A DNA stretch of 64,000 nt from Mucilaginibacter rubeus. GTDB lineage: Bacteria; Bacteroidota; Bacteroidia; Sphingobacteriales; Sphingobacteriaceae. The stretch is from the NCBI RefSeq assembly GCF_014643835.1, contig NZ_BMKD01000008.1, forward strand, positions 124,001 through 188,000, in the 5' to 3' direction. The position numbers were made by a program, and so were the translations under genes. Positions 29,628 through 60,000 of the stretch are shown here, piece by piece. Below the pieces are notes generated by a model. The model saw only the letters and a list, made by a program, of their open reading frames with translations, was not told the origin of the DNA and made no database searches. The first letter of the stretch is position 1, and the number at the start of each line of letters is the position of its first letter.

Positions 29628-29645
29628 AGCGGAGAGGGAGGGATT
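29628..29645. other. attL: 18-bp copy of the tRNA-Ser 3' end
   Basis: AGCGGAGAGGGAGGGATT is identical, in the same orientation, to 59983-60000, where it forms the last 16 bases of tRNA-Ser plus two downstream bases. The match stops at both sides. This is the pattern left by site-specific integration into a tRNA 3' end. Confidence 0.88.
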
Positions 29646-30110
29646 TGTTTTAACCCTAATTTTCTGCGCTAATTTGATATCTTGAATTGTTTTCAATTTC
29701 GTACTCACCGAATTACTCACCACATTTTATTTATAAGTATATAGCTGCAAATGCTATATGCAAATATACGAAAAAAGGGAAAAACAATTCTTTTTAATTA
29801 TGAAAATGTCTGTTCGAATTGAATGGATTACTCAAAGCCCCCTATAGTCGGAGGCAACCAATGATAGATTGACTCCCGTCCTTAAATCAGTAAATCGTCT
29901 TTTAAAAACCATTAAAGTCACTAACACCGGAGGAATGCAATAACAGATATTAAACCCATTCCATATTCTTTGAATTGAAATAAATTTCTCGAGAAGTTTA
30001 TTTGGCAGAGTTTTATAAAGGAGTTCAGTAATTCACTAAATATCAACTGTGTAACGTGTATCAGTGTCCCTATATTAAAGCTGATACGATAAGCATAAAC
30101 ATAACGATCG
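29646..30110. other. Left-end noncoding region of the element (candidate integrase arm sites)
   Basis: This 465-bp region has no supported gene. ACTCACCGAATTA occurs at 29703-29715 and a second ACTCACC at 29715-29721. The same 13-mer occurs inverted at 59834-59846 near the other end, and ACTCACCTAATTA at 59865-59877. Repeated short motifs just inside both ends fit arm-type binding sites of a tyrosine integrase. Confidence 0.5.
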
Positions 30111-31901
30111 TCATAAAACCTTTCTTAAACTGTCAACCAGCTCTCCAATACTTCCGTTTTGCTGATTTCTAAAAGCCAAATCGGTATAAAGAGTAGCGCA
30201 ATATTTACTGGATGATTTTAGAGCCTTCCATTCCGACCATAAATGGTCGTAACGGTTAATGGCCTGCTTAATTATCCCTATATTGAAACTGCCGCTCCGT
30301 TTTGCGATGCCGTTTTCTATCATCAATATCCACATCTGCTCGATCAGTTCATATTTTATCCGGCCATAAGTACAGGACACTTCAACAGCTTCCTGATCAG
30401 CTGCATTGTTTACATGGATTTGTTTCGATAACGCTTCAATCTGCCTCCATATGGCTGAAGCCTCTGCTTTTTCAGCCAACATTTCTCTCTCTCTCTTTTT
30501 ATTAATGATTTCATCGACTATATTTTTGTTTTCTGCCGCTGAAAAATATTGATCACGACTCCACCAAACGGCATTAGACGTATAACTGTTCAATTGTCCT
30601 TTCCGCACCCCTTCTATGGTCAATAGATTTAACTGTCTGAACAGATCGGCTTCATAACCAGTTAACCCAAGCCTTTTAGCGAACTCATAAAAGATGGCTT
30701 CTTCGGACTTTTCGGGATGCTGCGCCCATTGCGAAAGCACGTATGTATTCAAATCTGCCCATAACTCATTAGTGATATACGGACCGTCCCATCCGCCTCC
30801 ATTTGACCATGTCATTACTCCTTTTAATAGTCCTTTACCCAAAATATCTTTTATTCCCCGCGGTTTGTCTGGATCGTTAAGCTTTCCATTGAATTCGTGT
30901 CGCCCAAAAACGATTTCATATTTCGTCTCCGGCCAGCCGTCTATTACGCCTTTGGCCGTATAATACGGATGCGCACCTTTCCCATAAGCTTCCATCCTTG
31001 ATTGCGCCTCCACTATTTGTGCATGGTTGCCGATGGCGAGTGTAGGATTAAATGGTGTCATGCGGTGAAAATCGTCCTGCTGATATTTAATGACAAAAAT
31101 TAAATTAGGATGCGGTTTTATTAGATCGGTAACTGCCAGATAATAATCGGGGTTATTATGGAAATTATATCCAAAATCCCAAGTACGATAAAACAGCTTC
31201 TTATTGCGCTTTACACAAATCTCATCCCGTAAAATGTTTATCAAGGTCACCTGGTCTTCTATACCACTCTTGCCATCACGTATAGGCCCGCCTCCCATAT
31301 GGTAAGGGGCATCCTGTAAATATGTTTCGCCAAAGCGAAGTGTCAAACCGTCCAGTTGAGGAAACCGTTCAAAAATGCCGGCGATCTGTGCACGGAGCAT
31401 ATCCTGGGTTCTTTTGCTTTGCATATCGGGCTTTCTCGACCGTTCGTCCATGCCGCCAGTCCCGGCTACCTTACCTTGTCCCGTTATTTCGCTGCCATAT
31501 CTTGTCCACAAAGATTTTGGAAAAACAATGAAGTCGGTAAATGGATAAACACACATACCGGCCTTTTTACAGGCATTCAACTTTTTATCGATTTCCGCAG
31601 CTTTCGCCATTATCCATTCCCGCTCTTTACTATTTTCAGGAACAATGCCTTTTTCGTAATTATCATAAGTAATGGCGCAATTGACAAACCAATGGGTTAC
31701 CATTCCATTAAAACCCTGCGATTTCATGTAAACCGGATCATTATACTTTGTTACATAAGGTACTTCCCCGGGGTTATTATGCACCATGTCCAGAATGTAT
31801 GGAAGTGGCTGAACAGCTGACTGCGCAAATGCCTGTCCAATCATTATGGACAGGCATGCAATTAGTGTCAGATACTTAATTTTTATCTTAAAATTATCCA
31901 T
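30111..31901 (-). CDS. Secreted GH67-like putative glycoside hydrolase
   Basis: The 596-residue protein has a signal peptide (GQAFAQ, about residue 27) and no obvious standard annotation. Its middle resembles the GH67 enzyme at 10,941. A Glu in LTLRFGE (Glu192) is followed 85 residues later by DDFHRMTPFNP (Asp277) and 27 residues after that by EAQSRMEAYGKG (Glu304). In GH67 the equivalent acid, Asp and Glu lie in KANSEG, IDFQPREPFHP and EFQLTQEYLG with spacings of 74 and 28. This suggests the same barrel and catalytic residues with a different N-terminal region and a short C-terminus. Activity on a uronic-acid-bearing glycan is inferred. It is the last gene of the sigma/FecR/SusC/SusD unit. 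Confidence 0.6.
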   Translation of the reverse strand: MDNFKIKIKYLTLIACLSIMIGQAFAQSAVQPLPYILDMVHNNPGEVPYVTKYNDPVYMKSQGFNGMVTHWFVNCAITYDNYEKGIVPENSKEREWIMAKAAEIDKKLNACKKAGMCVYPFTDFIVFPKSLWTRYGSEITGQGKVAGTGGMDERSRKPDMQSKRTQDMLRAQIAGIFERFPQLDGLTLRFGETYLQDAPYHMGGGPIRDGKSGIEDQVTLINILRDEICVKRNKKLFYRTWDFGYNFHNNPDYYLAVTDLIKPHPNLIFVIKYQQDDFHRMTPFNPTLAIGNHAQIVEAQSRMEAYGKGAHPYYTAKGVIDGWPETKYEIVFGRHEFNGKLNDPDKPRGIKDILGKGLLKGVMTWSNGGGWDGPYITNELWADLNTYVLSQWAQHPEKSEEAIFYEFAKRLGLTGYEADLFRQLNLLTIEGVRKGQLNSYTSNAVWWSRDQYFSAAENKNIVDEIINKKREREMLAEKAEASAIWRQIEALSKQIHVNNAADQEAVEVSCTYGRIKYELIEQMWILMIENGIAKRSGSFNIGIIKQAINRYDHLWSEWKALKSSSKYCATLYTDLAFRNQQNGSIGELVDSLRKVL

Positions 31902-31933
31902 TTAAAATAAGCTTTGTTTTATTTAGTATTACA

Positions 31934-33604
31934 CTAATAGCCAGGATTTTGAATTAATTTGGCGTCTTTGTTTCTTTCTATTTCACTTTGAGGTATCGGC
32001 CAAAGATTGTTGGTTGGTTTGATATTGGCAGCAACCGGATTGTGCGCTACATTTACGGTCCTATCGTAAACCAGATTAAGCCGGGCCAGAGTAAGCCGTC
32101 GCTTTTCTTCAACACCTAATTCGCGCATCCGCTCATCTAATATGTAATTAATATTGACCGCAGAAGATAATACGGGTGAGGCATTTGCCCTCGCTCTGAC
32201 AACATTTATATCTTTTGCAGCGTTTTCCAACGATCCGGCACCGAGGTATGCTTCGGCACGTATTAAATAGGTCTCGGCCAGACGAAACATATATTGATTA
32301 CAATATGTACCGCCTGCTGCAGAACTCAGTAAAAACGTGGACTTATTGATGAATAATCCATCCGGGTGTTTTCCCGGAGTTGTGCATTTGGACTGATAGG
32401 CGTAAAATGCCCTGCTTGGGACGGTAACTCCCGCTGGCGGATTTTCTGTCGAAACGTTCTGGCCAAAATACGCGGGTTTAGCCGGGTCGTTGTAGGTGAA
32501 AGTCCGGACAAAGTTATAATTTGAGTTTCTCATGTCATTACTAAAATCACTGGTCCAGATGGAATTGGTAAAATATCTTGTAGAAATGGCCCAGCCGATG
32601 CCCCTTCCACCGGTATAATCGGATACCGGCCATAAAAACGGTTTTGCGCCACCGCTTAATGTAAGATCCCTGATTAAAGGTGCGTGCTGTCTTTCCAAAC
32701 GGTAGCTACCGTTAATAGACGTAGCGGATGAAGAGCCTCCCGGCACATCGTTTTCAAATTGAATTACCCAGATAGCCTCTTTATTACCCGAACTACGATT
32801 TTGGTTCTTCGGCCTGAATAAATCCCAATAAACATCTCCCGGGTCTGCGCTTTGCGACCCAAATCTTGTTTTCATTAAAGCCATATTTCCATCATCGATT
32901 ACAAGACTGGCCGTTGTAACCGCATTATTAAACTGCCCTGCGGCTAAATAAACTTCAGCTAACAAATGCTGAGCTGCCGTTTTGGATATTTGGCCATCTT
33001 GCACTGCCGAAATTGCCGGCAGGTTGGCAGCGGCAAACATCAGGTCGTCAATCACTTGTTTATAAACATCAGCCTGACTCGCCCTTACGAAATCCGTCTT
33101 AGGCGAAGTCACTTCCTTCAACACTAACGGAACCCCACCGTATAAATAGGCCAGTGTCCGATAGGCAAAACCTCGAAAAAACCTGGCATTCGCCTGAACA
33201 ATATTAGCATCCGCACCAGTTACTGATGAGGATGGCAACCTGTTTAAAATGGTGTTCGCTTCTGAAATGATTTTATAGAGGTTAGTCCAATGGATTGTTA
33301 AATAACCATTACTCGGATTGGTTGAAACCGCGTAATCACTAAACCGCTGAGGGCCGCTTGGCTGGCCGTCGTATACCAGGTCCAATCCGTAGATGTAATC
33401 AAATGGACTTTGTTCATCGTAAGTATAAAACTCGGTACGAACTAAATTATATAAGTTATAAACAGAAGCGTTAAAGTCCTTTAAAGTGCTAAATGAATTG
33501 ACCGTACTTGCAAAATCGAGTGGTTTTTCATCGAGGAATGTCTTCTTACATGATATTGTACTCAGTAACACAGTACACATCAAAATTTTATATAGATTTT
33601 TCAT
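31934..33604 (-). CDS. SusD/RagB-like nutrient-binding lipoprotein
   Basis: The 556-residue protein has the lipoprotein signal LLSTISCKKT (Cys at about 19). Classic RagB/SusD features include ARFFRGFAYRTLAYLYGGVPLV (about 142-163; core RGFAYRTLAYLYGGVP) and the C-terminal LWPIPQSEIERN block near the end. It binds glycan at the surface with the SusC protein encoded immediately upstream in the same unit. A 32-bp gap separates it from the GH67-like gene downstream. Confidence 0.92.
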   Translation of the reverse strand: MKNLYKILMCTVLLSTISCKKTFLDEKPLDFASTVNSFSTLKDFNASVYNLYNLVRTEFYTYDEQSPFDYIYGLDLVYDGQPSGPQRFSDYAVSTNPSNGYLTIHWTNLYKIISEANTILNRLPSSSVTGADANIVQANARFFRGFAYRTLAYLYGGVPLVLKEVTSPKTDFVRASQADVYKQVIDDLMFAAANLPAISAVQDGQISKTAAQHLLAEVYLAAGQFNNAVTTASLVIDDGNMALMKTRFGSQSADPGDVYWDLFRPKNQNRSSGNKEAIWVIQFENDVPGGSSSATSINGSYRLERQHAPLIRDLTLSGGAKPFLWPVSDYTGGRGIGWAISTRYFTNSIWTSDFSNDMRNSNYNFVRTFTYNDPAKPAYFGQNVSTENPPAGVTVPSRAFYAYQSKCTTPGKHPDGLFINKSTFLLSSAAGGTYCNQYMFRLAETYLIRAEAYLGAGSLENAAKDINVVRARANASPVLSSAVNINYILDERMRELGVEEKRRLTLARLNLVYDRTVNVAHNPVAANIKPTNNLWPIPQSEIERNKDAKLIQNPGY

Positions 33605-33614
33605 GTTTTAATAA

Positions 33615-36600
33615 TTAAAAGGTAACATTTAATCCTGCGGAATACGCTTTAATAACCGGGGATGCTCCATAAGCAAAGCCCTGGATGGTTTCAGGGTCCC
33701 ATCCTTTCCACTTCGTCCAAGTTGCAAGGTTCTTACCGCTCAGAAAAACACGCAGATTTTTTATTCCCACTTTGTTGATCAGTGCGCTACTGAAATTATA
33801 GCTGAGTGAAACCTCTTGGAGCCTTACGAAGCTTCTATTCTGATAGATGCCTGGATCGATAGCAGGCACACTGCCCGTGATGCGGTAAGTTGCATTTGGA
33901 TTTGAAGGTGTCCAGTAATTGACTTCTTTAAACCAGTTATTTCTTATGGCATTATCTCCCTGCTGAATACCACCATCGCTCCATGGATTATTGTAGCCCA
34001 AATAGCCATTTTTTCCACCCTGTACAGAGTTGATAAATACAAATAACGAAAACTGTTGATAAGAAAACGTATTGCCTATACTAAACCTGTAAGCGGGTTC
34101 GGTATGCCCTAAAATTACCCGGTCATCTGATGTTATTTTACCATCGCCATTGACATCCACCAGCTTATTGCCGCCTGTGTAATAACCGCCCGGGGGCGTT
34201 TCTCCAATTTGCCATAAACCATCGGTTTTATAGTTGTAGATAGCACCCAAAGGTTGTCCGATAAACAGGTTGCTGGATACAAGGTCACCGGAGCCCAGTA
34301 ATTTTTTGATCTTGTTTTTATTGGTTGCATAATTTAGTACAGTGCTCCATTGAAAATCCTTTACTTTAACGTTTATTGTATTTAATGTAAATTCAGCACC
34401 GGAATTATTTATTTCCCCAACATTGGTATTGATAGACGAGAATCCTGTAATTGTAGGGATGTTAACACTAAAAAGCAAATTATTGGTATTGGTATTGTAG
34501 TAATCCACAGCCCCACTTATCCGTCCATTGAATAACGAAAAATCTACACCAATGTTAATACCGGTTGTCGTTTCCCATGATAGGTTGTTGTTGGCTAATG
34601 TAGCTACCTGTTGGCCAAATAAGGTACTGCCGGCATCGCCGAAAACATAAGCAGCGCCCTGAGATACAGTAGCCAAAGAAGCATAACGGTTGGTTAAATT
34701 GCCATTGGAGCCATAACCCACCCGTAACTTTAAATTATCAAGCCAGTTGATTTTAAGAAAGGACTCATTACTGGCTACCCATGCAGCTGCCACTGATGGG
34801 AAAACACCAAATTTCTTATTACTGGCAAAGCCGGAAAATCCATCCCTCCTGATCGTAGATGTTAACAGGTATTTGCTTTTATAGCCATAACTCAGCCTGG
34901 CAGTTTGATAATTATAAGTCTCGCTATAAGCATTGGATGATATTTGCTGGATAAGTCCTTGTTGTAAACTATTATAACCCAACGATATATTGTTGTATCC
35001 CGCGCCTGAAGCAGATGTGGTTTCATACTTACGCTCTCTTGCGCCATAAACCATGGTTAAGTCAATTGAATGATCAGTACCAAAAGTTCGTTTATAATTT
35101 AGAATGTTGTCCAAAGTATAATCGTAAGTGGCATCATTAACTTTTGAAACCGCCCCTGTAAAATTAGCGGAGTATTGGTTAGCCATGTAATGTTGATTCC
35201 AATAATATCCGTTACCATAGTTCAAACGATAGGTAAGTCCTTTAACCTGAGGAATATTGAAAATCCCGTAAAAATTACCTGACAGTGTATTTCTGTGGTT
35301 ATAATCACTTCCATAGGTACTTAAAAAGGGATTATTAATGGATGCATTGGGTGTCAAATTGATGGCTCCGGCAGGGCTGTATGGAGTGTTCAAAGGACTG
35401 TAAAGCATGATGCTTCGTAAATCTGGTGGGTTACCGGAATAATCAGCTAGTGAAGTAAATGCCTGCGCTCCGACAGTAAGCCAATCGAAAACTTTCGTTT
35501 CCAGATTGATTCTTACCGATTTCCTGTTGAACTGATCATTAATAACAAAGCCTTTTTGTTTGGTATAGCCGCCGGAAATGAAAAAATTGGTTTTTTCGGT
35601 AGCGTTACTCACACTTAGCTGCTGGTCATACAACAGGCCCGGATTAGTGGCTGCTTTGTACCAATTGTAATCGGTTCCATTGTCATAACCCGATACCTGC
35701 GTAGCATCTAATTTTGACCGGAGATCGAAGGCCGGATTTGGTGTAAGGTAATCAGGCGCTAAATAAGCTTGTCGCCAATTGATATCTTTTACTTTTTGTA
35801 TAAACTCATTCCTGTCTAAAGGATGTAACTGGCTAGCTGGGTTCTGTGTAGCATAGGAAGATGAAAAGTTAATAACCGGCTTGCTGCCTGCTTTCCCTTT
35901 TTTTGTGCTGATCAACAATACGCCGTTTGCTGCTGATGCACCGTAAATGGCTTTACTGCTTGCATCCTTTAAGATATCGATGGAAGCGATGTCATTTGGA
36001 TTAATGCTTGATATATCGCCACTATAAACAATTCCGTCCAGAACAATCAAAACATTTTGGGATCCGGAAATTGTAGATTGTCCTCTGATTTGAATCGTAG
36101 GCGACTGGCCCGCAGATGATACCTGTCCGATATTTAAACCGGGCACCGTTCCTTGCAACAACTGTACTAAATTAGTATTGGGCGATTGTCTGAATGACTC
36201 CAAATCGGCACGTGCAACTGAGCCGGTAATGTCCGATTTCTTTTGAGCGCCATAGCCAATCACGATAACCTGATCGAGGGATTTAAGGGAAGGCGTAAGT
36301 TTGACAGTCAAGTTTAGTTCTCCGTTTAACGCAATTTCCTGCGACTCATACCCGATAAAGGATACAACAATGGTAGCATGTTCCGGAACCGTGAACGTAA
36401 ATAAACCCTCTGAATCGGTGACGACCCCAGTATTCGATCCCTTGACTTTAATTGTGACGCCTGGCAAGGTTTTTCCGTTTTCATCGAGGACTTTACCTTT
36501 TATTGTTACAGGCGGAATACCGATGTCTTTTGTAGCATCAGTTCCTTCCTTTCTTTTTAAAACCACAGTCTTATTGACAATAGAATAGGTGAGCGGCTGG

Positions 36601-36905
36601 TCCTTTAAAATCGCGTTTAGGGCTTGTTCAATATTTACATCCTGTAATTCAACAGATACCCTTATATTTTTGACAAACTTGTATTTGTAAAAAAAACTGT
36701 AACCGGTTTGCTTATGCAGCTTGGTAAACACTTCAGCTATTTGGATGTTCTTTTCTGAGAGCGTAACCATTTGCGCGTATCCTTTGGCGGATACTTGCAC
36801 ACAGGCAATAATTAAAAGGAGTGTAGTGAGTTTCATCACCAGAATGATTTTAGATGGAAAAATCCACCCAATGGCAGCTAATTTGCCACATAGTTTAAAT
36901 TTCAT
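33615..36905 (-). CDS. SusC-like TonB-dependent transporter with STN signalling domain
   Basis: The 1096-residue protein has a long N-terminus before the signal peptide (MKLTTLLLIIACVQVSAKG, from about residue 24). An STN/secretin domain follows (about 46-118; VFTKLHKQTGYSFFYKYKF), then a carboxypeptidase-regulatory-like domain (about 134-210), a plug starting VIVIGYGAQKKSDITGSVA, and the barrel. The STN domain signals ligand binding to a periplasmic FecR anti-sigma factor; matching fecR and ECF genes lie directly upstream. The protein imports a glycan with its SusD partner. Confidence 0.93.
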   Translation of the reverse strand: MKFKLCGKLAAIGWIFPSKIILVMKLTTLLLIIACVQVSAKGYAQMVTLSEKNIQIAEVFTKLHKQTGYSFFYKYKFVKNIRVSVELQDVNIEQALNAILKDQPLTYSIVNKTVVLKRKEGTDATKDIGIPPVTIKGKVLDENGKTLPGVTIKVKGSNTGVVTDSEGLFTFTVPEHATIVVSFIGYESQEIALNGELNLTVKLTPSLKSLDQVIVIGYGAQKKSDITGSVARADLESFRQSPNTNLVQLLQGTVPGLNIGQVSSAGQSPTIQIRGQSTISGSQNVLIVLDGIVYSGDISSINPNDIASIDILKDASSKAIYGASAANGVLLISTKKGKAGSKPVINFSSSYATQNPASQLHPLDRNEFIQKVKDINWRQAYLAPDYLTPNPAFDLRSKLDATQVSGYDNGTDYNWYKAATNPGLLYDQQLSVSNATEKTNFFISGGYTKQKGFVINDQFNRKSVRINLETKVFDWLTVGAQAFTSLADYSGNPPDLRSIMLYSPLNTPYSPAGAINLTPNASINNPFLSTYGSDYNHRNTLSGNFYGIFNIPQVKGLTYRLNYGNGYYWNQHYMANQYSANFTGAVSKVNDATYDYTLDNILNYKRTFGTDHSIDLTMVYGARERKYETTSASGAGYNNISLGYNSLQQGLIQQISSNAYSETYNYQTARLSYGYKSKYLLTSTIRRDGFSGFASNKKFGVFPSVAAAWVASNESFLKINWLDNLKLRVGYGSNGNLTNRYASLATVSQGAAYVFGDAGSTLFGQQVATLANNNLSWETTTGINIGVDFSLFNGRISGAVDYYNTNTNNLLFSVNIPTITGFSSINTNVGEINNSGAEFTLNTINVKVKDFQWSTVLNYATNKNKIKKLLGSGDLVSSNLFIGQPLGAIYNYKTDGLWQIGETPPGGYYTGGNKLVDVNGDGKITSDDRVILGHTEPAYRFSIGNTFSYQQFSLFVFINSVQGGKNGYLGYNNPWSDGGIQQGDNAIRNNWFKEVNYWTPSNPNATYRITGSVPAIDPGIYQNRSFVRLQEVSLSYNFSSALINKVGIKNLRVFLSGKNLATWTKWKGWDPETIQGFAYGASPVIKAYSAGLNVTF

Positions 36906-36962
36906 ACTTTTGTTAAGCTTGGGTTAGTAATGGATTCGTTTTTTGACTGGCCCGACGTAATT

Positions 36963-37076: not shown

Positions 37077-38246
37077 TTAAGGCAGCACTATTAATTTTTT
37101 GTCTTTTATTTTAAAGTGGACATCTCCCAATTCCAATATTTTTAATGCTTCAGATAATTTGGAGCTTCGCGGTATCTGCCCTTCAAAAAAATCATCACTT
37201 ATTGCGCCCTCATAACTTACATCAACATCATACCATCTGGAAAACTGCCGCATCAATGATTGCAGGTCAGCATGTTCAAAGCGGAAATAACCATTCTTCC
37301 AGGCAACAGCAATTTCAGTATCTACTTGTTGTATATTAATAGCCGCTTTACCGGGTTGAATAGTTGATTGTTGCCCGGGTTTAAGAAACTTGGCGCCGGA
37401 CTGGTTAAGTTGAGATATCTTTACCGATCCTTCGAGTAAGGTTGTTGTTACAACCGATTCATCTACATAGGCGTTAATGTTGAAATGTGTACCAAGTACT
37501 TCTACTATTTGGTTGTTGCTGATTACACGGAACGGTAAATGTTTATTTTTTTTAACTTCGAAATAAGCCTCTCCCGTTATTTTTACTTGCCGCTCATTTT
37601 CCCCAAAAGCAAGCGGAAAACTAATGGACGAGCAGGCATTAAGCCAAACATCCGATCCGTCTGGCAGTGTAATTTGATATTGTCCCGCCCTTGGCGTAGT
37701 TACCGTATTATATAACATTTTGCCATTGTTTAGGCCAGCTCCTAAAGCTGTATTGTTATAGGCTAACCGCCCATCTTTTGTCTTCTTGACAATAGCGCTT
37801 TTTTCTCTGGCCAATATTCCGCTTTGCGCTTGATCAAGGTCGAGTTTTTCGCCGTTTGATAAAGTAAGTATTGCTTTATTACGCCCGGGACTGGCATCGG
37901 TTTTTATAAAAGCAATCTTGTGAGCGCTGTATTTTATTGACGGCCTTAAAAATAAATATGCACCGACAGATAAGCAAAGAAGGACAATTGCTGCGGCAGC
38001 AACGCGATAAGAAAAAAACGTCGTTTGTGCAGCTGCCCCGTCAGAATTGCTTTTCATTTTCATAACAGACCGAAGCATTCGTTCCTTTAATGCCTCGGGG
38101 CTATCACCCAGGAGATCGGGCATACCGGTGTCATCAAAGGATTTATACCAATCATTGAATTCCTTACGTTCGTCTTCTGTAATGCTATCATCCTGCCATT
38201 TCCTGGCAAGTTCCCATATGCGTTCCTGGTTTTCCTTTGCAGCCAT
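37077..38246 (-). CDS. FecR-family anti-sigma factor
   Basis: The protein has about 389 residues from the start at 38246 (MAAKENQ); the in-frame ATG at 38273 adds nine residues. Layout is the usual one: a cytoplasmic anti-sigma region with the ELARKWQDDSITEDERKEF segment, one membrane helix (VAAAAIVLLCLSVGAYLFL, about 83-101), the periplasmic FecR domain (TPRAGQYQITLPDGSDVWLN, about 183-202) and a C-terminal DUF4974-type domain that contacts STN. It holds the neighbouring ECF sigma factor until the STN-type SusC senses glycan. Confidence 0.92.
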   Translation of the reverse strand: MAAKENQERIWELARKWQDDSITEDERKEFNDWYKSFDDTGMPDLLGDSPEALKERMLRSVMKMKSNSDGAAAQTTFFSYRVAAAAIVLLCLSVGAYLFLRPSIKYSAHKIAFIKTDASPGRNKAILTLSNGEKLDLDQAQSGILAREKSAIVKKTKDGRLAYNNTALGAGLNNGKMLYNTVTTPRAGQYQITLPDGSDVWLNACSSISFPLAFGENERQVKITGEAYFEVKKNKHLPFRVISNNQIVEVLGTHFNINAYVDESVVTTTLLEGSVKISQLNQSGAKFLKPGQQSTIQPGKAAINIQQVDTEIAVAWKNGYFRFEHADLQSLMRQFSRWYDVDVSYEGAISDDFFEGQIPRSSKLSEALKILELGDVHFKIKDKKLIVLP

Positions 38247-38335
38247 TAAAGATGTCGTTTTATATATAGACAAAGCAAAGGCACAAATCCCTATGCAGCA
38301 AAAAAAAATTGCTGCCTACATGCAGGTATTGAATA

Positions 38336-39575: not shown

Positions 39576-39908
39576 TCAGAAAAGGTTATGCAGTCCGAAA
39601 GCTGCAAGTTGATCTACGATTGGCAAAGTATTCAACCCTTTGTCGGTCAGTCGGTATTCAACTCTTGGGGGAACTTCCGCGTACGACTTCTTAGCAACAA
39701 ATTCATTTGCCACCAAGACGTTCAATTCGTGAATTAGCACCTTCTCACTGATTCCAGGAATACATCTTTTTAACTCGCCGTACCTGATAGTCCTTTCATT
39801 TATCTGGAACAGTATTAACAACGTCCATTTGCCACCCAACAATACTAAAGATTTTCTAACCGGGCAGTTTATATCCGACTGCATGATTATTTTTGGAGTT
39901 TCTTCCAT
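39576..39908 (-). CDS. HxlR-family transcriptional regulator
   Basis: The 110-residue winged-helix protein has the HxlR core: NCPVRKSLVLLGGKWTLLIL (about 14-33), then RYGELKRCIPGISEKVLIHE (about 42-61). Family members sense small molecules or redox state and repress adjacent genes. It is divergent from a SnoaL-like gene, and a 32-bp operator-like sequence lies between them. A near-identical operator occurs at 52151-52182 next to another SnoaL-like gene and a decayed hxlR. Confidence 0.9.
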   Translation of the reverse strand: MEETPKIIMQSDINCPVRKSLVLLGGKWTLLILFQINERTIRYGELKRCIPGISEKVLIHELNVLVANEFVAKKSYAEVPPRVEYRLTDKGLNTLPIVDQLAAFGLHNLF

Positions 39909-51620: not shown

Positions 51621-52100
51621 TTAGAACATCGGATTGTTATTGGCACGCCTGTCTGGCATCTGCATCATAGCATCCCAATGCTCGGCTAATTTTCCATTTT
51701 CTAAACGATAAATATCAATAAACCTTGATTCTTTCCCTGCCATTTCATACCGTGAATGAAGGATAACAATATCGCCATCTGCAACAATATGTTTAAACTC
51801 AATTTTCTGGTGGGATATGCCTTTAGAGATAAGCATTTTTACAAGAGCCTTTACTCCTTCCGGGCCGTCAGCTATTGTTGGGTTATGTTGTAAGAAATTC
51901 TTACTCATATACTCATCAACCGCAGAAGTATCCAGATCCCCAAAAATTCTTTGGTAAGCTGTGCTAGCTATTTTCTTGTTGTCTTCTTCTTGTTTCATAA
52001 CACTATTTTTATTTTTTAGAGAATGATTTACTTTTTGTGCCTGTACACAAGTTAGATTTACCGCAAAAAACAGTATTGCTGCTATTAGTTTTACTTTCAT
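51621..52100 (-). CDS. Exported SnoaL-like / NTF2-fold protein
   Basis: The 159-residue protein has a signal peptide (VNLTCVQAQ) and a SnoaL-like domain with FLQHNPTIADGPEGVKALVK (about 69-88) and FIDIYRLENGKLAEHWDAMM (about 126-145). It is probably periplasmic, unlike the cytoplasmic SnoaL-like protein encoded at 40,024. Its upstream region carries an HxlR operator nearly identical to that at 39,936 and, divergent from it, the decayed start of an hxlR gene. The intact HxlR protein may now control both genes (inference). Confidence 0.82.
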   Translation of the reverse strand: MKVKLIAAILFFAVNLTCVQAQKVNHSLKNKNSVMKQEEDNKKIASTAYQRIFGDLDTSAVDEYMSKNFLQHNPTIADGPEGVKALVKMLISKGISHQKIEFKHIVADGDIVILHSRYEMAGKESRFIDIYRLENGKLAEHWDAMMQMPDRRANNNPMF

Positions 52101-52182: not shown

Positions 52183-52213
52183 TGAAACGTTAGAAATATT
52201 GAATATCAATGAG

Positions 52214-52862: not shown

Positions 52863-53609
52863 ATGATATCGGATACCTATTTCAAGTTTCGCGGTCGCTT
52901 TGAGTTAAATCCTCACCGGTATGATATCGGTTGGCTAATATTTACAGACAGGATTTTCGGTTTAAATTTCCTTGTCAATAAGATTTATAAGATCAAAAAA
53001 GATGAGTACGCTACGTTTTACAATTACCAGTTAAATCACTACCTTGAGGGAAACGCCGGACAGGAAGAGGCTTTTTTCGATCATGTTTATGATATTGTAA
53101 ATACCAGGATTAAATTCTACAAAGGGCTTAAGCCGTCCGCCCAGGGATTGAAATTTACCGCCAAACTGGAAGCGTTTCTGGCATACCTGGAAAGTATTGA
53201 TCAGTGGCACAAAACACAGCCCTTGGAATCAGTTATCGCTGATAAAAATAAACAGATTGACCAGTTAGAAGCAAAAATCAAAGAACTGGAGAACCAGATT
53301 AAAGATTACATTAAATATGAAGCCGGTGAAAAGATAGTCATCAGCAAGGACGGCCTGCCGGTGTTCATTGACCTGATTGATCAAATAAGGGATTTGAAGT
53401 TGCCGAACGATAATAAATTGGTAAACAGCCAAACGGCAAGCCCCTGGTATAAATTGATCGCCAAGAATTTTTTAAACGGAGATAAACCTATTGCTATAGG
53501 CACCGCTCAGAATTATTTCCCGGCCGATAAGGAAAACCCACCTCCGAAATACACGATCATCGCCGAAAAAGACAAACTCTTCAAAATTATACAAAAGCCT
53601 AAAAAATAG
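52863..53609 (+). CDS. Hypothetical protein with central coiled coil
   Basis: The family of this 248-residue cytoplasmic protein was not recognised. It has an N-terminal region rich in aromatic residues, an alpha-helical middle with a likely coiled coil (DKNKQIDQLEAKIKELENQI, about 127-146), and a C-terminal domain starting near VFIDLIDQIRDLKLPND. Its position before the DNA-binding and mobilization genes suggests a role in control or maintenance of the element, perhaps like RteC-type regulators, but no motif proves this. The stop codon lies inside a terminator hairpin. Confidence 0.7.
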   Translation: MISDTYFKFRGRFELNPHRYDIGWLIFTDRIFGLNFLVNKIYKIKKDEYATFYNYQLNHYLEGNAGQEEAFFDHVYDIVNTRIKFYKGLKPSAQGLKFTAKLEAFLAYLESIDQWHKTQPLESVIADKNKQIDQLEAKIKELENQIKDYIKYEAGEKIVISKDGLPVFIDLIDQIRDLKLPNDNKLVNSQTASPWYKLIAKNFLNGDKPIAIGTAQNYFPADKENPPPKYTIIAEKDKLFKIIQKPKK

Positions 53610-53616: not shown

Positions 53617-53874
53617 TCTTTTCATTCGTGACCAAACGCCTCCAATGGTCATTCATTTTGCTGTTTTAGCCCTCATTTTTGAACCATTGTATTTAGTGGC
53701 TGGTATTTTATTGTTCCGCTGAACGGGTTTAATAAAGAAAGGAGGTTATCACGGTGCGAAACTAAACAAGATTTAATATACAAACATTTGGGGTCACCCT
53801 ATTAAAGTCCCCAATTAATAAAATAGCGCTTGCCCAAATTTGGACAAGAATTATTCACGAAAAAAATATCAACT

Positions 53875-54141
53875 ATGACAGCAATTGAATTGATCACTAA
53901 GGAGGATTTAAGGGAGTTTAAAGGAGAGTTATTGAAGGAGATCAAACAGCTGATGCAGCCCGGACAAGGGCAATCTAAGAAATGGCTGAGGAGCGTCGAA
54001 GTGCGGAAGCTGTTGGGCATCTCGCCCGGCACACTTCAGAACCTACGAATTAATGGAACACTGCGTTTTACCAAAGTAGGTAGTATTATGTATTACAAAC
54101 TGGAAGACATCAACGAGATCCTGGAGGGTGAAGGCAAATGA
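53875..54141 (+). CDS. Helix-turn-helix (MerR/excisionase-type) DNA-binding protein
   Basis: The protein has about 88 residues from the ATG at 53875 (MTAIELITKEDL); the frame also offers 53830. It shows the HTH_17-type pattern WLRSVEVRKLLGISPGTLQN (about 37-56), followed by the wing LRFTKVGSIMYYKLEDINEIL. Such small proteins act as excisionase-like or regulatory factors in Bacteroidota mobile elements. It overlaps the next gene by four bases (ATGA), so translation is coupled. Confidence 0.85.
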   Translation: MTAIELITKEDLREFKGELLKEIKQLMQPGQGQSKKWLRSVEVRKLLGISPGTLQNLRINGTLRFTKVGSIMYYKLEDINEILEGEGK

Positions 54142-54455
54142 AGTTGCAGAAGGAAATTGTTAAAGAATTGGCCGGTTATGCCAGCCTGGTCAGGCGCATG
54201 GAAAAAGACGACCGGCTGCTGCCAACGCATCTTAGCCTGTTTACAGGTTTGTTTGTCTGTTGGCAGCGGAACGGTTTTACAAGCCCGTTCAGTGTGACCC
54301 GGAAAACGCTTATGGCGTTTTCCAAGGTCGCGTCAATTGCAACGTATCACAAGTGTATCAAAGAACTCGATGAATATGGTTACATCCGCTATGAGCCATC
54401 ATACCACCCCAAACTCGGCAGCCAGGTATACTGGCCAGCCGGTTGGGAAGTGTAG
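54138..54455 (+). CDS. Small winged-helix-like protein of the mobile element
   Basis: The 105-residue protein is translationally coupled to the upstream HTH protein. The central part (FSVTRKTLMAFSKVASIATY, about 56-75, and CIKELDEYGYIRYEPSYHPK, about 78-97) looks like a winged helix with a beta-hairpin wing. This is a pattern seen in plasmid replication or partition regulators and in conserved small proteins of Bacteroidota elements. The function is not established. Confidence 0.7.
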   Translation: MKLQKEIVKELAGYASLVRRMEKDDRLLPTHLSLFTGLFVCWQRNGFTSPFSVTRKTLMAFSKVASIATYHKCIKELDEYGYIRYEPSYHPKLGSQVYWPAGWEV

Positions 54456-54844
54456 CCCGATACTTTGTATCGGTATATCTGTATACCGGGCTATACAAAT
54501 AGCTGCATATCGGAATAACTGGTTATTCCGATATATGGATAGACAGATATCCAGCTATATCAATCCGGTGCAGCCCTTGGCTGCACCGGTAATGATTTGC
54601 TTCGCAAATGAGGAAGGGAAAGCGGCGGTCGCTTTGCGAAAGCGAAGGGAGCAAGCGGAAGTTGGGCAGAGCCCTACTTTGCTTGCCCTACGCTTCGCTA
54701 CGGGGGTTTTACGTATCCTCCGGGGATACTTTAGGGCGTTTCCGCCTGTGAAATAAAAGAAAACAGGATACTCGGCGGTATCCTGTATATAGGAATAAAG
54801 GCATGACTGTATAAACAGCTATGCCGTCAATATGAAAGGATAGC
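54456..54844. other. Palindrome-rich region before the mobilization genes, candidate oriT
   Basis: This 389-bp region has no supported gene. It holds a series of strong inverted repeats: CCGATAC/GTATCGG (54457-54473), a 13-bp stem around TATCGGAATAAC/GTTATTCCGATA (54507-54534), CCGGTGCAGCC/GGCTGCACCGG (54565-54589) and ATTTGC/GCAAAT (54595-54609). Dense inverted repeats directly upstream of BtgA/BtgB-like genes are what an oriT would look like. No nick sequence could be identified. Confidence 0.5.
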
Positions 54845-55396
54845 ATGGAAGATATCAATGTAAGATCAGTGAGATACCCGGTTACGGTAGATCAGAAGTT
54901 TGAAAAGATCGCCCTTAAACTGGGCAGGACAAAGCGGCAGGTGTTTATCCAGATGGTCGATTACTTTTATAAAAGCAAGAAAGACCCGCTGGACCTGAAT
55001 GATGAGTTATTAAAAAATGCGCTGATGAAGAATCACCAGCAGTATATCGGTTTTATCAAAAGCCAGGAGAATATGTTGCTCATTCCGATCAAAACAGAAA
55101 TGGATCGGGTATCTGTATCACAAGCCAAGATCATCGAACGTTTTAATACGCAAATCCTCAAGGCGAATACGGATTTGCTAAATAATCAGCACGTGATGGC
55201 GCAAAAGTTAACCGGAATGGATGCGCTGATGGAAACGATTTCGAAAAATCAAAAAAGTAAGGAACACCTGAAAAAACAATTCCTGTTCATCTTTGATGGT
55301 TACATCAAATCACGGGAGGCTTTCGGGATGATGACATCGGCCAGGGAAAAAGATGAGTTGATCGCTGTTACCAGATCGCAGGTAAGTTTACTTTAA
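54845..55396 (+). CDS. BfmA/BtgA-like mobilization accessory protein
   Basis: The 183-residue protein has an N-terminal DNA-binding region VRYPVTVDQKFEKIALKLGR (about 8-27) with ribbon-helix-helix-like character, then a long helical part with coiled-coil potential. BtgA/BfmA proteins help the relaxase bind oriT in mobilizable Bacteroidota elements. It lies upstream of the relaxase-like gene; between them is a C/G-tract repeat (CCCCCTTTAGGGGGTTAGG, about 55408-55430). Confidence 0.82.
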   Translation: MEDINVRSVRYPVTVDQKFEKIALKLGRTKRQVFIQMVDYFYKSKKDPLDLNDELLKNALMKNHQQYIGFIKSQENMLLIPIKTEMDRVSVSQAKIIERFNTQILKANTDLLNNQHVMAQKLTGMDALMETISKNQKSKEHLKKQFLFIFDGYIKSREAFGMMTSAREKDELIAVTRSQVSLL

Positions 55397-55437
55397 TCAT
55401 ATATTTTAATTCCCCCTTTAGGGGGTTAGGGGGCTTT

Positions 55438-56412
55438 ATGTTTATCAATATCACGGACAGCAAAGAAGCAGCGAACAAAGGCAGCAGCGCGGGACTAGTA
55501 AATTACCTGGAAAAAGAAAACAGGATTGATCATAAGCAGGAACCTGAATACTGGTTCAATGGTAGGCAGATCAGAATCGAGCCTTATGAGGTCATGCGCA
55601 CCATAGATGGTAATGTCGCCAAGCTGGGTAAAGACGATGCTAAGTTTTTCTTAATCAATATCAGCCCGAGCCAGAAAGAGATCAGGTTTCTGAAAGAACA
55701 GTATGGCGAAGAAAGTGCTAAAGAACATATGAAAGGCTTTGCGGTCAGGGTGATGGATGCCTACGCAAAAAACTTTAACCGGGATGGTGTGAACAGTAAC
55801 CAAGACTTGTTATGGTTCGCCAAGTTGGAAAACTACCGTTACTACAGCCATACTGATCCGGAAGTAAAACAAGGTTTAAAACAACGGGGCGAACGTAAAG
55901 AGGGTGAGCAGATGCATGTGCAGGTTATTGTCAGCCGTAAGGATATAACCAATAAGATCAAGCTTAGCCCAATGAACACCTCAAGAGGAAAAAATGGAGA
56001 GCATTCTAAAAAGATGGGGCAGTTTGACCGGGTAGCATTCAAACAGAGCGGAGAATCTCTTTTCGACAGCCTGTTTGGATTTGACAGGCAGTTAAAAGAT
56101 ACGATGGCATATGCCAATGTTCAAAAGAACGGGGAGCTATCACAGCGGGAACAATTAGGTGTGTTGGCCGAAGGAGCTTCGCAAAATTACAAAAGCAGGT
56201 CGGTGGCTAATGAACTCGCTCAGGGAGTTGCGGAAGGCTTATTTACGACAACAGCGAATATGCTATCGGCAGCGGGTAAGACAGCCGCAAGCTTCCTAGA
56301 AGTGATGCTGGAACCGATGTATACAGGAGGTGCTAATATTGTCCCTGAAAGCGAGGCCGAGGCAAAGAAAAAACGAAAGAAAAAATACCAGGGCCAGCAG
56401 ATCTCGCATTGA
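55438..56412 (+). CDS. BtgB/MobB-like mobilization protein (DUF5712), probable relaxase
   Basis: The 324-residue protein resembles DUF5712/BtgB-type mobilization proteins. A conserved N-terminal block runs from MFINITDSKEAANKGSSAGL (1-20) to LVNYLEKEN. The central LLWFAKLENYRYYSHTDPEV region and a histidine in GEQMHVQVIVSRKD (about 158-171) fit a relaxase-type metal site. The C-terminus ends in a basic run (KKKRKKKY). It would nick and lead the element DNA during transfer driven by a helper conjugative system. Relaxase activity is inferred. Confidence 0.82.
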   Translation: MFINITDSKEAANKGSSAGLVNYLEKENRIDHKQEPEYWFNGRQIRIEPYEVMRTIDGNVAKLGKDDAKFFLINISPSQKEIRFLKEQYGEESAKEHMKGFAVRVMDAYAKNFNRDGVNSNQDLLWFAKLENYRYYSHTDPEVKQGLKQRGERKEGEQMHVQVIVSRKDITNKIKLSPMNTSRGKNGEHSKKMGQFDRVAFKQSGESLFDSLFGFDRQLKDTMAYANVQKNGELSQREQLGVLAEGASQNYKSRSVANELAQGVAEGLFTTTANMLSAAGKTAASFLEVMLEPMYTGGANIVPESEAEAKKKRKKKYQGQQISH

Positions 56413-56786
56413 AGCAGTGAGTTATTATAGAAAAGATATTTGTCCTTTTGATATATAAAAGTGGCCATGCAGCTGCGGCAGGCGGCTTCATTACACCACG
56501 CGCTGCGCTCCGGGTTTCATTACGCCGCCAGTCTCGCCGCCGCACGTGCAGGAGTGTATTCGTTCCTCATACACACCTGCCTTTCCCGCCCGCGGGTTAT
56601 CGGTTAGTCACAGCACCGCGGTCACAAAATTAGCTCACGCATGAAAAGTGTCAAGGGTATATAAACCGGCTATCGCCGGCCCTTGACACTTTTCATGCTT
56701 TAAGCTCCCGGTTGTTTAAGCGGTGATATGACTGAGTGCGTGCAGTTGAAGAAGAGGTGCACGGCACATATAATTACCCTCGCAAA
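56413..56786. other. GC-rich noncoding region with long inverted repeat
   Basis: This 374-bp region lies between the mobilization genes and the zeta-kinase operon. It is more GC-rich than its neighbours at 56460-56620 (several CGCC/GGCG runs) and contains the long inverted repeat at 56639-56698. No supported gene was found; frames here lack family signal. Confidence 0.45.
56639..56698. repeat. Perfect 19-bp inverted repeat with nested inner stem
   Basis: The outer arms are GCATGAAAAGTGTCAAGGG (56639-56657) and its exact complement (56680-56698). Between them is a second stem, CCGGC/GCCGG (56666-56679, loop TATC). No T-run follows, so it is not a typical terminator. A cruciform of this size beside mobilization genes could be an oriT, a single-strand origin or a protein-binding site. 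Confidence 0.7.
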
Positions 56787-57482
56787 TTAACGTTTGATGC
56801 CGCCGCTACCTAATGAACGCCCAGGACTCTGATCCTGTTCGGGTTTTACTATACGTTGTTGCTCTTGCGTTTTCTCCATGGATGTTCCCATGTCTTGAAC
56901 GATGCGGTTAACCCATTGCGGTAAATTAGGAGCCTGTTCGACAAGTTTACCATCAGCATATTTCAGATATACCGAAATATTTTGTCCCTTTTCCTTAGAT
57001 GCGGCTTTCATTAAGATAACTTGATCAAAAGTATGGTAATATTTTTGCAGGTTAATTAATGACTGCTCATAATTAGCTTTGATGTTATCTGCCGATACAT
57101 CGTGCCCTCCTTTAGCTACCCTTAAACGTACGCGCTCAAAAGACATAGCAATTTCATCCAAGCCAAAGAAAAATAATCGGGTACTATAGCCCTTAAGCTT
57201 AAATTCATTGACTGATTTCATGATATCTTCTGTTCGAAAGTTCGTCTCGAAAGCACAGGTTGCATTTTTGGCTTGCATGGTTTCTTTCCAGCCCGAAAAT
57301 ACATGCCCGTTAACTGCGTCATATAAATTACCGCTGTCTAAACCTGGAAATTGCTTTTTTAGAAGTATAAATTCTTTATCGCCATCAAAAATAGGAGTAC
57401 CAGGTGGTACCATGGAGGACGACAGCGTGCTTTTACCAGCGCCATTTGGCCCGGCAAAAACAAATAGTTCCGGCTGTTCCAT
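56787..57482 (-). CDS. Zeta-toxin-family P-loop kinase
   Basis: The 231-residue protein has Walker A GPNGAGKS (11-18), the FDGDKEF segment (32-38), ETNFRTED (79-86) and the conserved RVAKGGHDV block (121-129). It matches zeta-toxin/COG4185 kinases, which phosphorylate UDP-N-acetylglucosamine or other nucleotide substrates. The C-terminal 35 residues are Gln/Pro-rich and probably disordered. The start codon overlaps the stop of the preceding 127-residue gene, so they are translated together. A toxin role inside the element is inferred; the antitoxin is not recognised. Confidence 0.82.
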   Translation of the reverse strand: MEQPELFVFAGPNGAGKSTLSSSMVPPGTPIFDGDKEFILLKKQFPGLDSGNLYDAVNGHVFSGWKETMQAKNATCAFETNFRTEDIMKSVNEFKLKGYSTRLFFFGLDEIAMSFERVRLRVAKGGHDVSADNIKANYEQSLINLQKYYHTFDQVILMKAASKEKGQNISVYLKYADGKLVEQAPNLPQWVNRIVQDMGTSMEKTQEQQRIVKPEQDQSPGRSLGSGGIKR

Positions 57483-57865
57483 TAAAATCTCCTGCTGACT
57501 ATCTGGCTGTCACCTGTGGTGGTATTTACTTTAACCAACTCTCGATGATCGGCATATTCACGAATAACGTGATTATTATACTCTTGATTTCCCGCTGCCT
57601 CATAAACGTTATAGAGACCCAAATGAGTGTTTTCGGCTTCTACATTTTGGATTTCAGGACACAACCGTTCTTCCAGCTCTTTTAAAGAACATTCAAAAAC
57701 TGGTATGTAAGTTAGTTGCTCCATTAGAATTTGTAGTTCCGCCGCCTTTGCTGGGTGCCAATGGCTCACAGGAATAAGAACAGCGGTTGCCTTTTGTTGT
57801 TCGTCGTAAACAATATTAAATGTATCCTGACCGATGAACTCTTTCAAATTTAGTGTTTTATACAT
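57482..57865 (-). CDS. Hypothetical protein coupled to the zeta kinase, candidate antitoxin
   Basis: This 127-residue acidic protein has no recognised family. The segment KATAVLIPVSHW (about 25-36) faintly resembles the AVLVP patch of Phd-type antitoxins, which is weak evidence. It ends exactly where the zeta gene begins and starts 11 bp after the membrane-protein gene. Position and overlap make it the best antitoxin or partner candidate for the zeta kinase. Confidence 0.65.
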   Translation of the reverse strand: MYKTLNLKEFIGQDTFNIVYDEQQKATAVLIPVSHWHPAKAAELQILMEQLTYIPVFECSLKELEERLCPEIQNVEAENTHLGLYNVYEAAGNQEYNNHVIREYADHRELVKVNTTTGDSQIVSRRF

Positions 57866-57876
57866 GATTTTACAAA

Positions 57877-58389
57877 TTATTGTTTAACAATAGCGTGATG
57901 CTGAAGCGCTTTTTTGTGCTGAATTGCCCCATGGGGAAACCTCATATTATTGGATTGAGATTGGACAGGCGTTGGCTTACTTATGTTGCCTTGTTGTTCT
58001 TGTAGTAACCCTGCCAACGCATTGATCTGTATTTTTAAAGCCAATGCAAATCCGAAAGAAATTGCGGCTGTGATAACCAAGCCGAAATAAACAAGTAGCA
58101 TTTTCAGTTTTATTTGTTCAGGAGAGGATTTAAGCACTTTATCAAGTTTTTTCTCCAAATTGTCTATAGCAATTTCTAATTTGTTATCCGGTTGACGGTT
58201 AACCAGCTTATCCAGTTTCACGCTGATCTGTTCAAATTGGGAAGTATAATCCGGCAAATAAACTTTTGGATAGTTATTAATGTTCTTCTCCATGTTGGCT
58301 ATGCGGTCATTATACGTTTTGCTATGTTCGGTTGACCTGTCGGTAACTTCCTCCAGCGAATCGATTATATCATTGTTTTGATTGCTCAT
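57877..58389 (-). CDS. Membrane protein with N-terminal coiled coil
   Basis: The protein has about 170 residues from the ATG at 58389 (MSNQNNDIIDSLEEV); an earlier in-frame ATG at 58434 adds 15 residues unlike the rest. An N-terminal helical region of heptad character (DNLEKKLDKVLKSS and before) leads to one membrane helix (LLVYFGLVITAAISFGFALA, about 98-117) and a Gln/His-rich tail. It is the first gene of the three-gene zeta operon. Its role is unknown; it may place the system at the membrane. Confidence 0.65.
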   Translation of the reverse strand: MSNQNNDIIDSLEEVTDRSTEHSKTYNDRIANMEKNINNYPKVYLPDYTSQFEQISVKLDKLVNRQPDNKLEIAIDNLEKKLDKVLKSSPEQIKLKMLLVYFGLVITAAISFGFALALKIQINALAGLLQEQQGNISKPTPVQSQSNNMRFPHGAIQHKKALQHHAIVKQ

Positions 58390-58478
58390 TTTCGTTAAGT
58401 GTTTAATTCTGTAAGCTATCGGCCAAGGGAACACGATTGATCTCGTTTTTCCCTTTTGTGTTGGTTAAGAATATAATG

Positions 58479-58514
58479 AATACCCATGAAGCCGCTTGAG
58501 CCTTCATGGGTATT
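58479..58514. terminator. Strong hairpin between integrase and zeta operon
   Basis: Perfect 13-bp arms AATACCCATGAAG / CTTCATGGGTATT with a 10-nt loop lie 14 bp past the integrase stop. It probably ends the integrase transcript before the zeta operon. Confidence 0.72.
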
Positions 58515-58527
58515 GGGTAGGGGGCTA

Positions 58528-59736
58528 TTAATAAAGTTGTCTTAATTTAGACATATCCTGACCGACTTTAAGGTCAAGGATCTTTGCATAATGCTGGGTC
58601 GTTTTGATGTTGGTGTGACCCAGCATCTTACTTACACTTTCAATAGGTACACCATTGGAAAGTGTAACCGTCGTAGCAAAGGTGTGCCGTGCAATATGGA
58701 AGGTTAACTTTTTAGTAATGGCACAGATGTCGGCAATTTCTTTTAAGTAAGCGTTCATCTTTTGGTTGGTGGATACTGGAAGTGCTTTCCCTGAATTTTC
58801 GCAAATCGGAGAATCACTATATTTATTCAGGATAGCAATTGCCGATGGTAAAAGGGGAATACGTGTGGGTGTAGCTGTTTTCTGCCGTTTGGTATTGATC
58901 CATTTCTCACAGTCAGGACCTGTGACGACCTCAAACGCTTTAAGCTTAAATACATCAGCGTAAGATAGTCCAGTGTAGCAGCTGAAAAGAAAAATATCCC
59001 TGATCTGCCCTAAACGTTCGGTTGCGAATTGCTTAACAACCATTCGCTGCAATTCTTCATTATTTAAAAATACCCTGTCCACTACTTTAACTTTCGCTTT
59101 GTAATTGACAAAAGGATCACTGTTTAACCAACCGCTTGCAATACAGATCCGAACAATCTTTTTAAAGTTTTTAAGGTATTTAACTGCTGAATTATTCCCG
59201 CATTTTCTTACAGAGCGAAGGTAGAAATCATAGCTTGTAATAAAATCATGATCAATGTCACGGATATCGATGTCAGCGGTATTATATTTCCATTTGATGA
59301 ATTCGGAAGTATGCTTTAAAGAGGTTTGATAACGCTCTAATGTCCCTTTTGCAAAATCGGCACCGACCAAAGCTGCCACCTGTGCATTGTGGTCCTTAAA
59401 TATATCAAGGATCATCCTGACGGATTCCGTTTTACCGGTGAGTTTACTTTTTAGCCGTTCGGCTGTAATGGCTGCTTTTTGCTCCGTAAGGCTTTGATGC
59501 GCGTCATACACCATAGCTTGTAACTGGTCAAGGTATGCGTTAAAGGTTCTGGAAGCTTCCTTGGTTCCTTTTAACCGCCCTGCTTTGCTATTCCATTGTA
59601 AAGGATCGCAGCTTCGTGCTGTTGTAGTTTCAGACCGTTTACCGGCAACGGTAATACGAAGATAGATCGGCACGGGGCCGTCTGTGTAGTTTTTTGGTTT
59701 CTTCAAATAGAAGAGTAAGCTGAAATTAGTTTTCAT
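58528..59736 (-). CDS. Tyrosine recombinase / integrase of the element
   Basis: The protein has about 402 residues from MKTNFSLLFYLKKPKNY (59736), the usual Bacteroidota integrase N-terminus; the frame runs 18 residues further upstream. It has an arm-binding/SAM-like region and the catalytic domain with HIARHTF (His347, Arg350), LGHTNIKTTQHY (His374, Tyr383 as nucleophile). The first catalytic Arg position reads CYTGLSYADV, with Ser where an Arg is usual, as reported for IntDOT-like integrases. It lies next to attR and should catalyse integration into tRNA-Ser and, with a partner, excision. Confidence 0.92.
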   Translation of the reverse strand: MKTNFSLLFYLKKPKNYTDGPVPIYLRITVAGKRSETTTARSCDPLQWNSKAGRLKGTKEASRTFNAYLDQLQAMVYDAHQSLTEQKAAITAERLKSKLTGKTESVRMILDIFKDHNAQVAALVGADFAKGTLERYQTSLKHTSEFIKWKYNTADIDIRDIDHDFITSYDFYLRSVRKCGNNSAVKYLKNFKKIVRICIASGWLNSDPFVNYKAKVKVVDRVFLNNEELQRMVVKQFATERLGQIRDIFLFSCYTGLSYADVFKLKAFEVVTGPDCEKWINTKRQKTATPTRIPLLPSAIAILNKYSDSPICENSGKALPVSTNQKMNAYLKEIADICAITKKLTFHIARHTFATTVTLSNGVPIESVSKMLGHTNIKTTQHYAKILDLKVGQDMSKLRQLY

Positions 59737-59833
59737 GTTAAATAACATTAAAAGTGAAACAAAACTAAGCTTGCAGCTAATCATAATCAAGATGTTTAAG
59801 TATTGAACATCTTGATAATCAAAAAGATATGAC

Positions 59834-59877
59834 TAATTCGGTGAGTTTAAATATCTCAAAATTTACTCACCTAATTA
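59834..59877. promoter_or_regulatory. Candidate integrase arm sites at the right end
   Basis: ACTCACCGAATTA in inverted orientation (59834-59846) and ACTCACCTAATTA direct (59865-59877) face each other across 18 bp. The first is an exact 13-base match to 29703-29715 at the left end. They lie between the integrase start and attR. Confidence 0.5.
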
Positions 59878-59923
59878 CGCACTGTTTATATGCGATTCGG
59901 TGGATATTTTGAGTATTGATAAA

Positions 59924-59961
59924 AAAACAAAAGCCTGCAATCATATGATTTGCAGGCTTTT
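59924..59961 (-). terminator. Terminator of tRNA-Ser supplied by the element
   Basis: Perfect 12-bp arms AAAAGCCTGCAA / TTGCAGGCTTTT are followed on the minus strand by G and seven T. It lies 24 bp after the tRNA 3' end, inside the element, and replaces the terminator left beyond attL. Confidence 0.85.
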
Positions 59962-59982
59962 ACATAATTTGATATCAAAATC

Positions 59983-60000
59983 AGCGGAGAGGGAGGGATT
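59983..60000. other. attR: 18-bp repeat inside the tRNA-Ser 3' end
   Basis: AGCGGAGAGGGAGGGATT matches 29628-29645 exactly and covers the last 16 bases of the tRNA (T-arm and acceptor) plus two bases. Because the element carries the same bases, the tRNA stays functional. Confidence 0.88.

Follow-up and report, generated by a model that had tools for sequence, protein, structure and literature searches.

The question raised by this locus is whether a block of about 30 kb, in which two complete SusCD loci lie next to a tRNA-Ser gene, is a mobile element, and of which class. Throughout, the window denotes the whole stretch of DNA that was analysed (64 kb from Mucilaginibacter rubeus), and all coordinates refer to it unless stated otherwise. 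Judged from its sequence, the segment 29628-60000 is very probably an integrative mobilizable element (IME) of Mucilaginibacter with tRNA-Ser(GGA) as the target; the IME class is already known, and the cargo is the unusual part. The segment is bounded by an exact 18-bp direct repeat (left att copy, 29628-29645; right copy, 59983-60000), as the initial annotation had stated, and the unit between the repeats measures 30.36 kb. The repeat consists of the last 17 nt of the tRNA-Ser(GGA) gene (59984-60072, minus strand; tRNA call) plus 1 nt; the right copy forms the 3' end of this target gene, which is left intact. When up to two mismatches were allowed, the repeat was found at just two places in the 64-kb window, and the expected number of occurrences had a mean of 0.00 (100 shuffles). 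Its commonness elsewhere, which the initial annotation had named as a point to be checked, was examined in seven relatives: the exact 18-mer was found once in five of them and was absent from the other two, and because the exact copy occurs at most once per genome, the 18-mer is not a common repeat in these relatives. With one mismatch it was found at 17 places in total across the seven genomes, and the places at G001:C10 adjoin two tRNA-Ser(GCT) genes. A putative pair of integrase arm sites (ACTCACC-N5-ACTCACC; 29703-29721, plus strand) lies in exact form 57 bp inside the left repeat, and a second putative pair lies near the right end (59865-59883, plus strand) with two mismatches; none of 100 shuffles reached two such pairs, for a pattern that was picked after the sequence was read. 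Arm-like pairs are present also at both ends of the insert of SMC90 (see below).

Equivalent element ends were found in the genome G126 around a tRNA-Ser(TGA). Their identity with the window is 91% over 968 bp at the right end and 82% over 426 bp at the left. The two copies of the 18-bp repeat in G126 are 39,341 bp apart, and both, including the one at the place equivalent to the left repeat of the window, read AGCGGAGAGCTAGGGATT, which is the spelling of G126's own tRNA. The core thus follows the host tRNA and the element-side sequence stays constant, as site-specific recombination predicts. The reading of the 18-bp repeat as a chance match or a common genomic repeat, with the block as ordinary chromosome, is already contradicted by this spelling and, with the shuffle mean and the copy number in the relatives given above, is hardly credible. 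What speaks against a sharp edge is that the left ends of the window and G126 remain weakly similar, with gaps, for about 48 bp outside the repeat (29580-29627), although their tRNAs differ. The G126 element contains a SusC-like gene, FecR and a weak ECF match; SusD was not detected in it with tblastn. In the left flank of G126 (L209, about 4.69-4.77 kb), a degenerate full-length tRNA-Ser-like sequence, read by eye, adjoins the left repeat; ARAGORN makes no tRNA call on it.

In SMC90, the region corresponding to 1-18428 of the window is syntenic at 84-86% identity with some insertions, the right flank is syntenic too, and the same tRNA carries a different insert of 203 kb, which has its own tRNA-Ser repeat (21 nt) and contains TraG, TraJ, TraK and TraM. 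The syntenic part includes a chromosomal glycan locus (9520-18145; UxuA, GH67, GH43, an esterase, a DUF5597 protein and an alginate-lyase-family protein). The following stretch of about 11 kb (18429-29627), without a counterpart in the 240-kb SMC90 region, encodes GH29, ROK, SusC/SusD, a beta-lactamase-TPR protein, DUF1801/OmdA and AraC, and is possibly an older island in tandem. Because the synteny with SMC90 ends at 18428, not at 29628, and because the AraC/DUF1801 pair to the left of the element is also found beside tRNA-Ser genes in G001 (and near such genes in G007), the left flank may be an older island; the mobile or acquired piece would then extend over about 18.4-60 kb and consist of that island (with GH29, ROK, SusCD and the AraC pair) and the 30-kb element. 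We regard this composite as unlikely, and it is compatible with the IME reading, so that the odds of the two overlap. A second att copy left of 29628 was not found (for a 25-nt query, the best value was 14 on the plus strand and 16 on the minus strand, versus 15-16 in five shuffles), and both G126 and the arm-site pair set the end of the element at 29628.

For the IME reading, the initial annotation had proposed a search for an empty tRNA-Ser site. In FT3.2, the element is absent and the left-flank genes at 27786 and 28493 are about 1.5 kb away from the same tRNA, but the gap holds a different gene (352 codons, about 1.06 kb); among the relatives compared, none showed a perfect empty site in which the two immediate flanks adjoin. 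The ends in G126, the insert in SMC90 and the site in FT3.2 agree, and they support the original reading of a mobilizable element integrated at tRNA-Ser. When 80 loci were retrieved through the neighbouring gene, tRNA-Ser(GGA) was present in 68, and in 61 of these the sequence continued for more than 2 kb past it; a related integrase was found within 600 bp of the tRNA in 9 of the 61 (in two pieces in L024). tRNA-Ser(GGA) is a recurrent insertion site. The protein encoded beside the tRNA is 98% identical to its counterparts in M. gossypiicola and SMC90.

The element can be divided into three modules, namely integration/maintenance (about 56.6-60.0 kb), mobilization (about 52.8-56.7 kb) and cargo (30.07-51.6 kb). 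The site-specific integrase lies at one end, beside the tRNA, where it had been noted before; it is a tyrosine integrase (58528-59790, minus strand) in which the domains Arm-DNA-bind_5, Phage_int_SAM_5 and Phage_integrase were found. The same module encodes two proteins to which profile searches and comparison with relatives assigned no family (57877-58434, minus strand; 57482-57865, minus strand, the companion of the kinase gene) and a zeta-toxin/AAA_33-like kinase (Pfam; 56787-57482, minus strand), which recurs in relatives and is a possible maintenance gene. The mobilization module was compared with seven relatives fetched by their relaxase, called siblings here. It starts with a protein without a usable family (52863-53609, plus strand; 26-89% identity in siblings), followed by an HTH_17 excisionase-like protein (Pfam, the excisionase model being below its cut-off; 53830-54141, plus strand), a protein without an assigned family that is also seen in siblings (54138-54455, plus strand), a non-coding, stem-loop-rich stretch (54456-54844), a mobilization protein of the BfmA/BtgA family (NCBIfam NF041200; 54845-55396, plus strand), which agrees with the BtgA-like gene of the initial annotation, and a MobB-family relaxase (Pfam and NCBIfam, NF041495/DUF5712; 55438-56412, plus strand). 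The relaxase scored 264.3 bits against NF041495 (cut-off, 200), and the element has, by this match, a relaxase of its own. The non-coding region 54440-54860 is 85-91% conserved in all seven siblings (one match starts at 54622) and is rich in inverted repeats; it is therefore a candidate oriT. The BfmA/BtgA accessory protein, which we take to be associated with mobilization of the Tn4399/Tn5520 type, makes the element similar to that type, whereas its relaxase belongs to the NF041495 MobB family.

Transfer genes were absent from the Pfam matches of the 26 element ORFs scanned (the scan left out five ORFs of at least 100 aa that overlap scanned genes), and TraG, TraJ, TraK and TraM from OK268 gave zero tblastn matches in the element. 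The same queries do match the SMC90 insert, which serves as a positive control, and the earlier observation that Tra genes are missing was thus borne out by both searches. Integration at the 3' end of a tRNA, the modular make-up and the lack of a detected conjugation pore are, at the sequence level, supported by comparison. The element may alternatively be a decayed island, which arrived as a mobilizable element and has since lost its mobility; such decay is seen in the family, as in the G126 copy the mob module is almost entirely gone and some of the integrase gene is missing, and the integrase match in G004 comprises just 94 residues. For the element in the window, in which the open frames of the integrase (420 aa) and the relaxase (324 aa) are full-length and both copies of the repeat are exact, we consider this quite improbable.

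In the cargo of the IME so defined, the two complete sets of ECF, FecR, SusC and SusD that had been described were recovered with Pfam, all eight genes being found. Locus 1 is encoded on the minus strand and comprises SusD (31934-33604), SusC with an STN signalling domain (33615-36905), a FecR anti-sigma factor (37077-38273) and an ECF sigma factor (38336-38932), next to an enzyme-like protein (30111-31901, minus strand). Between the loci, Pfam assigned an HxlR regulator (39576-39908, minus strand), a SnoaL-like protein (40024-40413, plus strand), a protein of the carbonic anhydrase family (Pro_CA; 40698-41477, plus strand) and DUF2490 (41566-42159, plus strand). Locus 2 comprises an ECF sigma factor (42320-42946, minus strand), FecR (43161-44384, plus strand), SusC with an STN domain (44533-47835, plus strand) and SusD (47867-49507, plus strand), and is followed by a GH29 alpha-L-fucosidase (49770-51542, plus strand) and another SnoaL-like protein (51621-52100, minus strand), all by Pfam. 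With respect to the definition of a polysaccharide utilization locus (PUL), SusC is adjacent to SusD in both pairs, ECF/FecR regulators are present in both loci, and a carbohydrate-active enzyme is given by GH29 in locus 2 and by the enzyme-like protein in locus 1, the latter judged so by its predicted fold alone. As to the two enzymes of the initial annotation, the fucosidase was found as described, and the GH67-like protein was retained by fold and not by sequence: a TIM barrel with a helical C-part like GH67/GH138 was predicted for the protein at 30111-31901, and zero matches were obtained in Pfam (E 0.001), NCBIfam and PDB sequences. Its assignment to GH67 by sequence was rejected, as no Pfam match was obtained at E 0.001. 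A true GH67, which matches all three GH67 models, is encoded outside the element at 10890-13121.

These components suggest the following course. The tyrosine integrase very probably recombined the 18-bp core with the tRNA-Ser(GGA) 3' end in such a way that the tRNA stayed intact and a repeat came to lie at the far end, which is the step supported by comparison. The integrase would carry out excision, helped by the HTH_17 protein, the MobB/BfmA relaxosome would then nick the oriT at the conserved stretch, and a co-resident conjugative element of the CTnDOT type may provide the pore. The kinase may have a role in maintenance. The cargo would add two TonB-dependent SusCD transporters; since both come with an STN domain and with a FecR/ECF pair of their own, each is probably induced by a separate ligand via trans-envelope signalling. 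The GH29 fucosidase and the GH67/GH138-like enzyme would trim a putative fucose-containing glycan, the uptake of which would be under the control of ECF/FecR.

The history of the cargo was approached by comparison with OK268 (G008), in which the block 30065-51619 is largely colinear. The nucleotide identity is 96.0% over 10,387 bp for locus 1 with the enzyme-like protein, HxlR and SnoaL, 92.6% over 1,888 bp for GH29 and 89.6% for the carbonic anhydrase region, versus 77.5-79.8% for the core DNA beside the tRNA; this comparison of 96% with 78-80% supports horizontal movement of the cargo. The protein identity is 59% for SusC2 and 67% for SusD2; for the ECF and FecR of locus 2 the similarity drops to about 30% and 23%, respectively, and DUF2490 of the window had no match in the OK268 block, and part of locus 2 has therefore been replaced, either in the window or in OK268. 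In OK268, TraM, TraK, TraJ and TraG of the CTnDOT type (the TraM match being just below the cut-off of the model) start about 2.8 kb past the block and end about 11 kb from it. The genome G149 contains both SusCD pairs and the protein at 30111 in a rearranged order (56-79% protein identity). Of 149 genomes, 8 contain a match to the protein at 30111, and the close matches (77-97%) are confined to OK268 and G149. Glycan-use loci set what Bacteroidota can eat. A 30-kb hitch-hiker of this kind would deliver two sensor-controlled transporter systems at once, and, with most of its cargo also lying close to conjugation genes in a second species, it offers a concrete, culture-testable route by which soil- and plant-associated bacteria could exchange such loci.

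Among known systems, the Bacteroides IMEs NBU1 and NBU2 are similar to the element in the window in their tyrosine integrase, their insertion at a tRNA 3' end and their own relaxase; according to passages of PMC5704250, NBU2 targets tRNA-Ser and NBU1 tRNA-Leu, both are mobilized by ICEs with a Bacteroidetes-type pore, their relaxases are classed as MobP, and most IMEs are 5-15 kb long, the longest hardly exceeding 50 kb. The element in the window differs from both in its host genus and in its SusCD cargo of 21.5 kb. In the ImmeDB survey of gut genomes, as excerpted from PMC6907783, 47 SusC/SusD loci were found on chromosomal mobile elements, with IMEs limited to 30 kb; the likeness is SusC and SusD on mobile elements, and the difference is the gut origin. 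A vehicle with two PULs is less surprising because such loci on gut mobile elements have already been published there. Porphyran, agarose and carrageenan loci of the gut are likewise credited to ICEs or mobilizable plasmids in a passage of PMC8845570. CTnDOT-like ICEs with heavy-metal cargo are known in Mucilaginibacter itself (excerpt of PMC6316836); these share with the element the genus and a tyrosine recombinase, and represent the likely type of helper, but are predicted to be self-transmissible. The matches listed from the open-licence literature included neither an IME carrying two SusCD loci nor any Mucilaginibacter IME that bears a PUL, which is weak evidence of absence.

The MobB relaxase was found in 61 of the 149 Mucilaginibacter genomes searched. 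The siblings represent seven of these relaxase places (left out among the closest were G003:C12, near a contig start, G112 and both places in G056); G126 was excluded, having lost almost every one of its mob genes, and region L231 and most small loci lay outside the analysis. In all seven, between 2.1 and 4.0 kb of the mob module around the relaxase shows 84-91% nucleotide identity with the window. An integrase-like match adjoins a tRNA in six of the seven (Ser-GCT in two, Glu in one and Leu in three), one of these matches being the 94-residue one of G004, and a direct repeat delimits five (41.7, 27.4, 40.6, 15.6 and 53.4 kb, the 15.6-kb one by a 15-nt match). One SusC/SusD pair was detected in three of these five siblings and none in two, versus two pairs in the element of the window, as counted with tblastn (the three SusC and three SusD of the window as queries, E 1e-6), which gives lower bounds. 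TraG, TraJ, TraK and TraM had no tblastn match in the window element or in any of the five repeat-delimited siblings, in contrast to the SMC90 insert; OK268 is also positive, being the source of the queries. We tentatively suggest, as one possibility, that these elements form a family of Mucilaginibacter IMEs with glycan-use loci as standard cargo, in which recombination would have joined a fixed mobilization core to various integrases at various tRNAs, and SusCD blocks would have been swapped in their entirety with self-transmissible elements of the CTnDOT type; since some of the latter use the same tRNA-Ser site, they could serve as both helper and cargo partner. The element family deserves a proper census. 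The integrase/kinase module (56603-60006) recurs as a unit elsewhere in SMC90 (84.7%). A window-like integrase/kinase module in G002:C1 near 3,630,760 (L204) ends at att-like repeats outside any recognised tRNA. At 1894-2023 of the window lies a terminator-like repeat with dozens of matches in the six related genomes searched.
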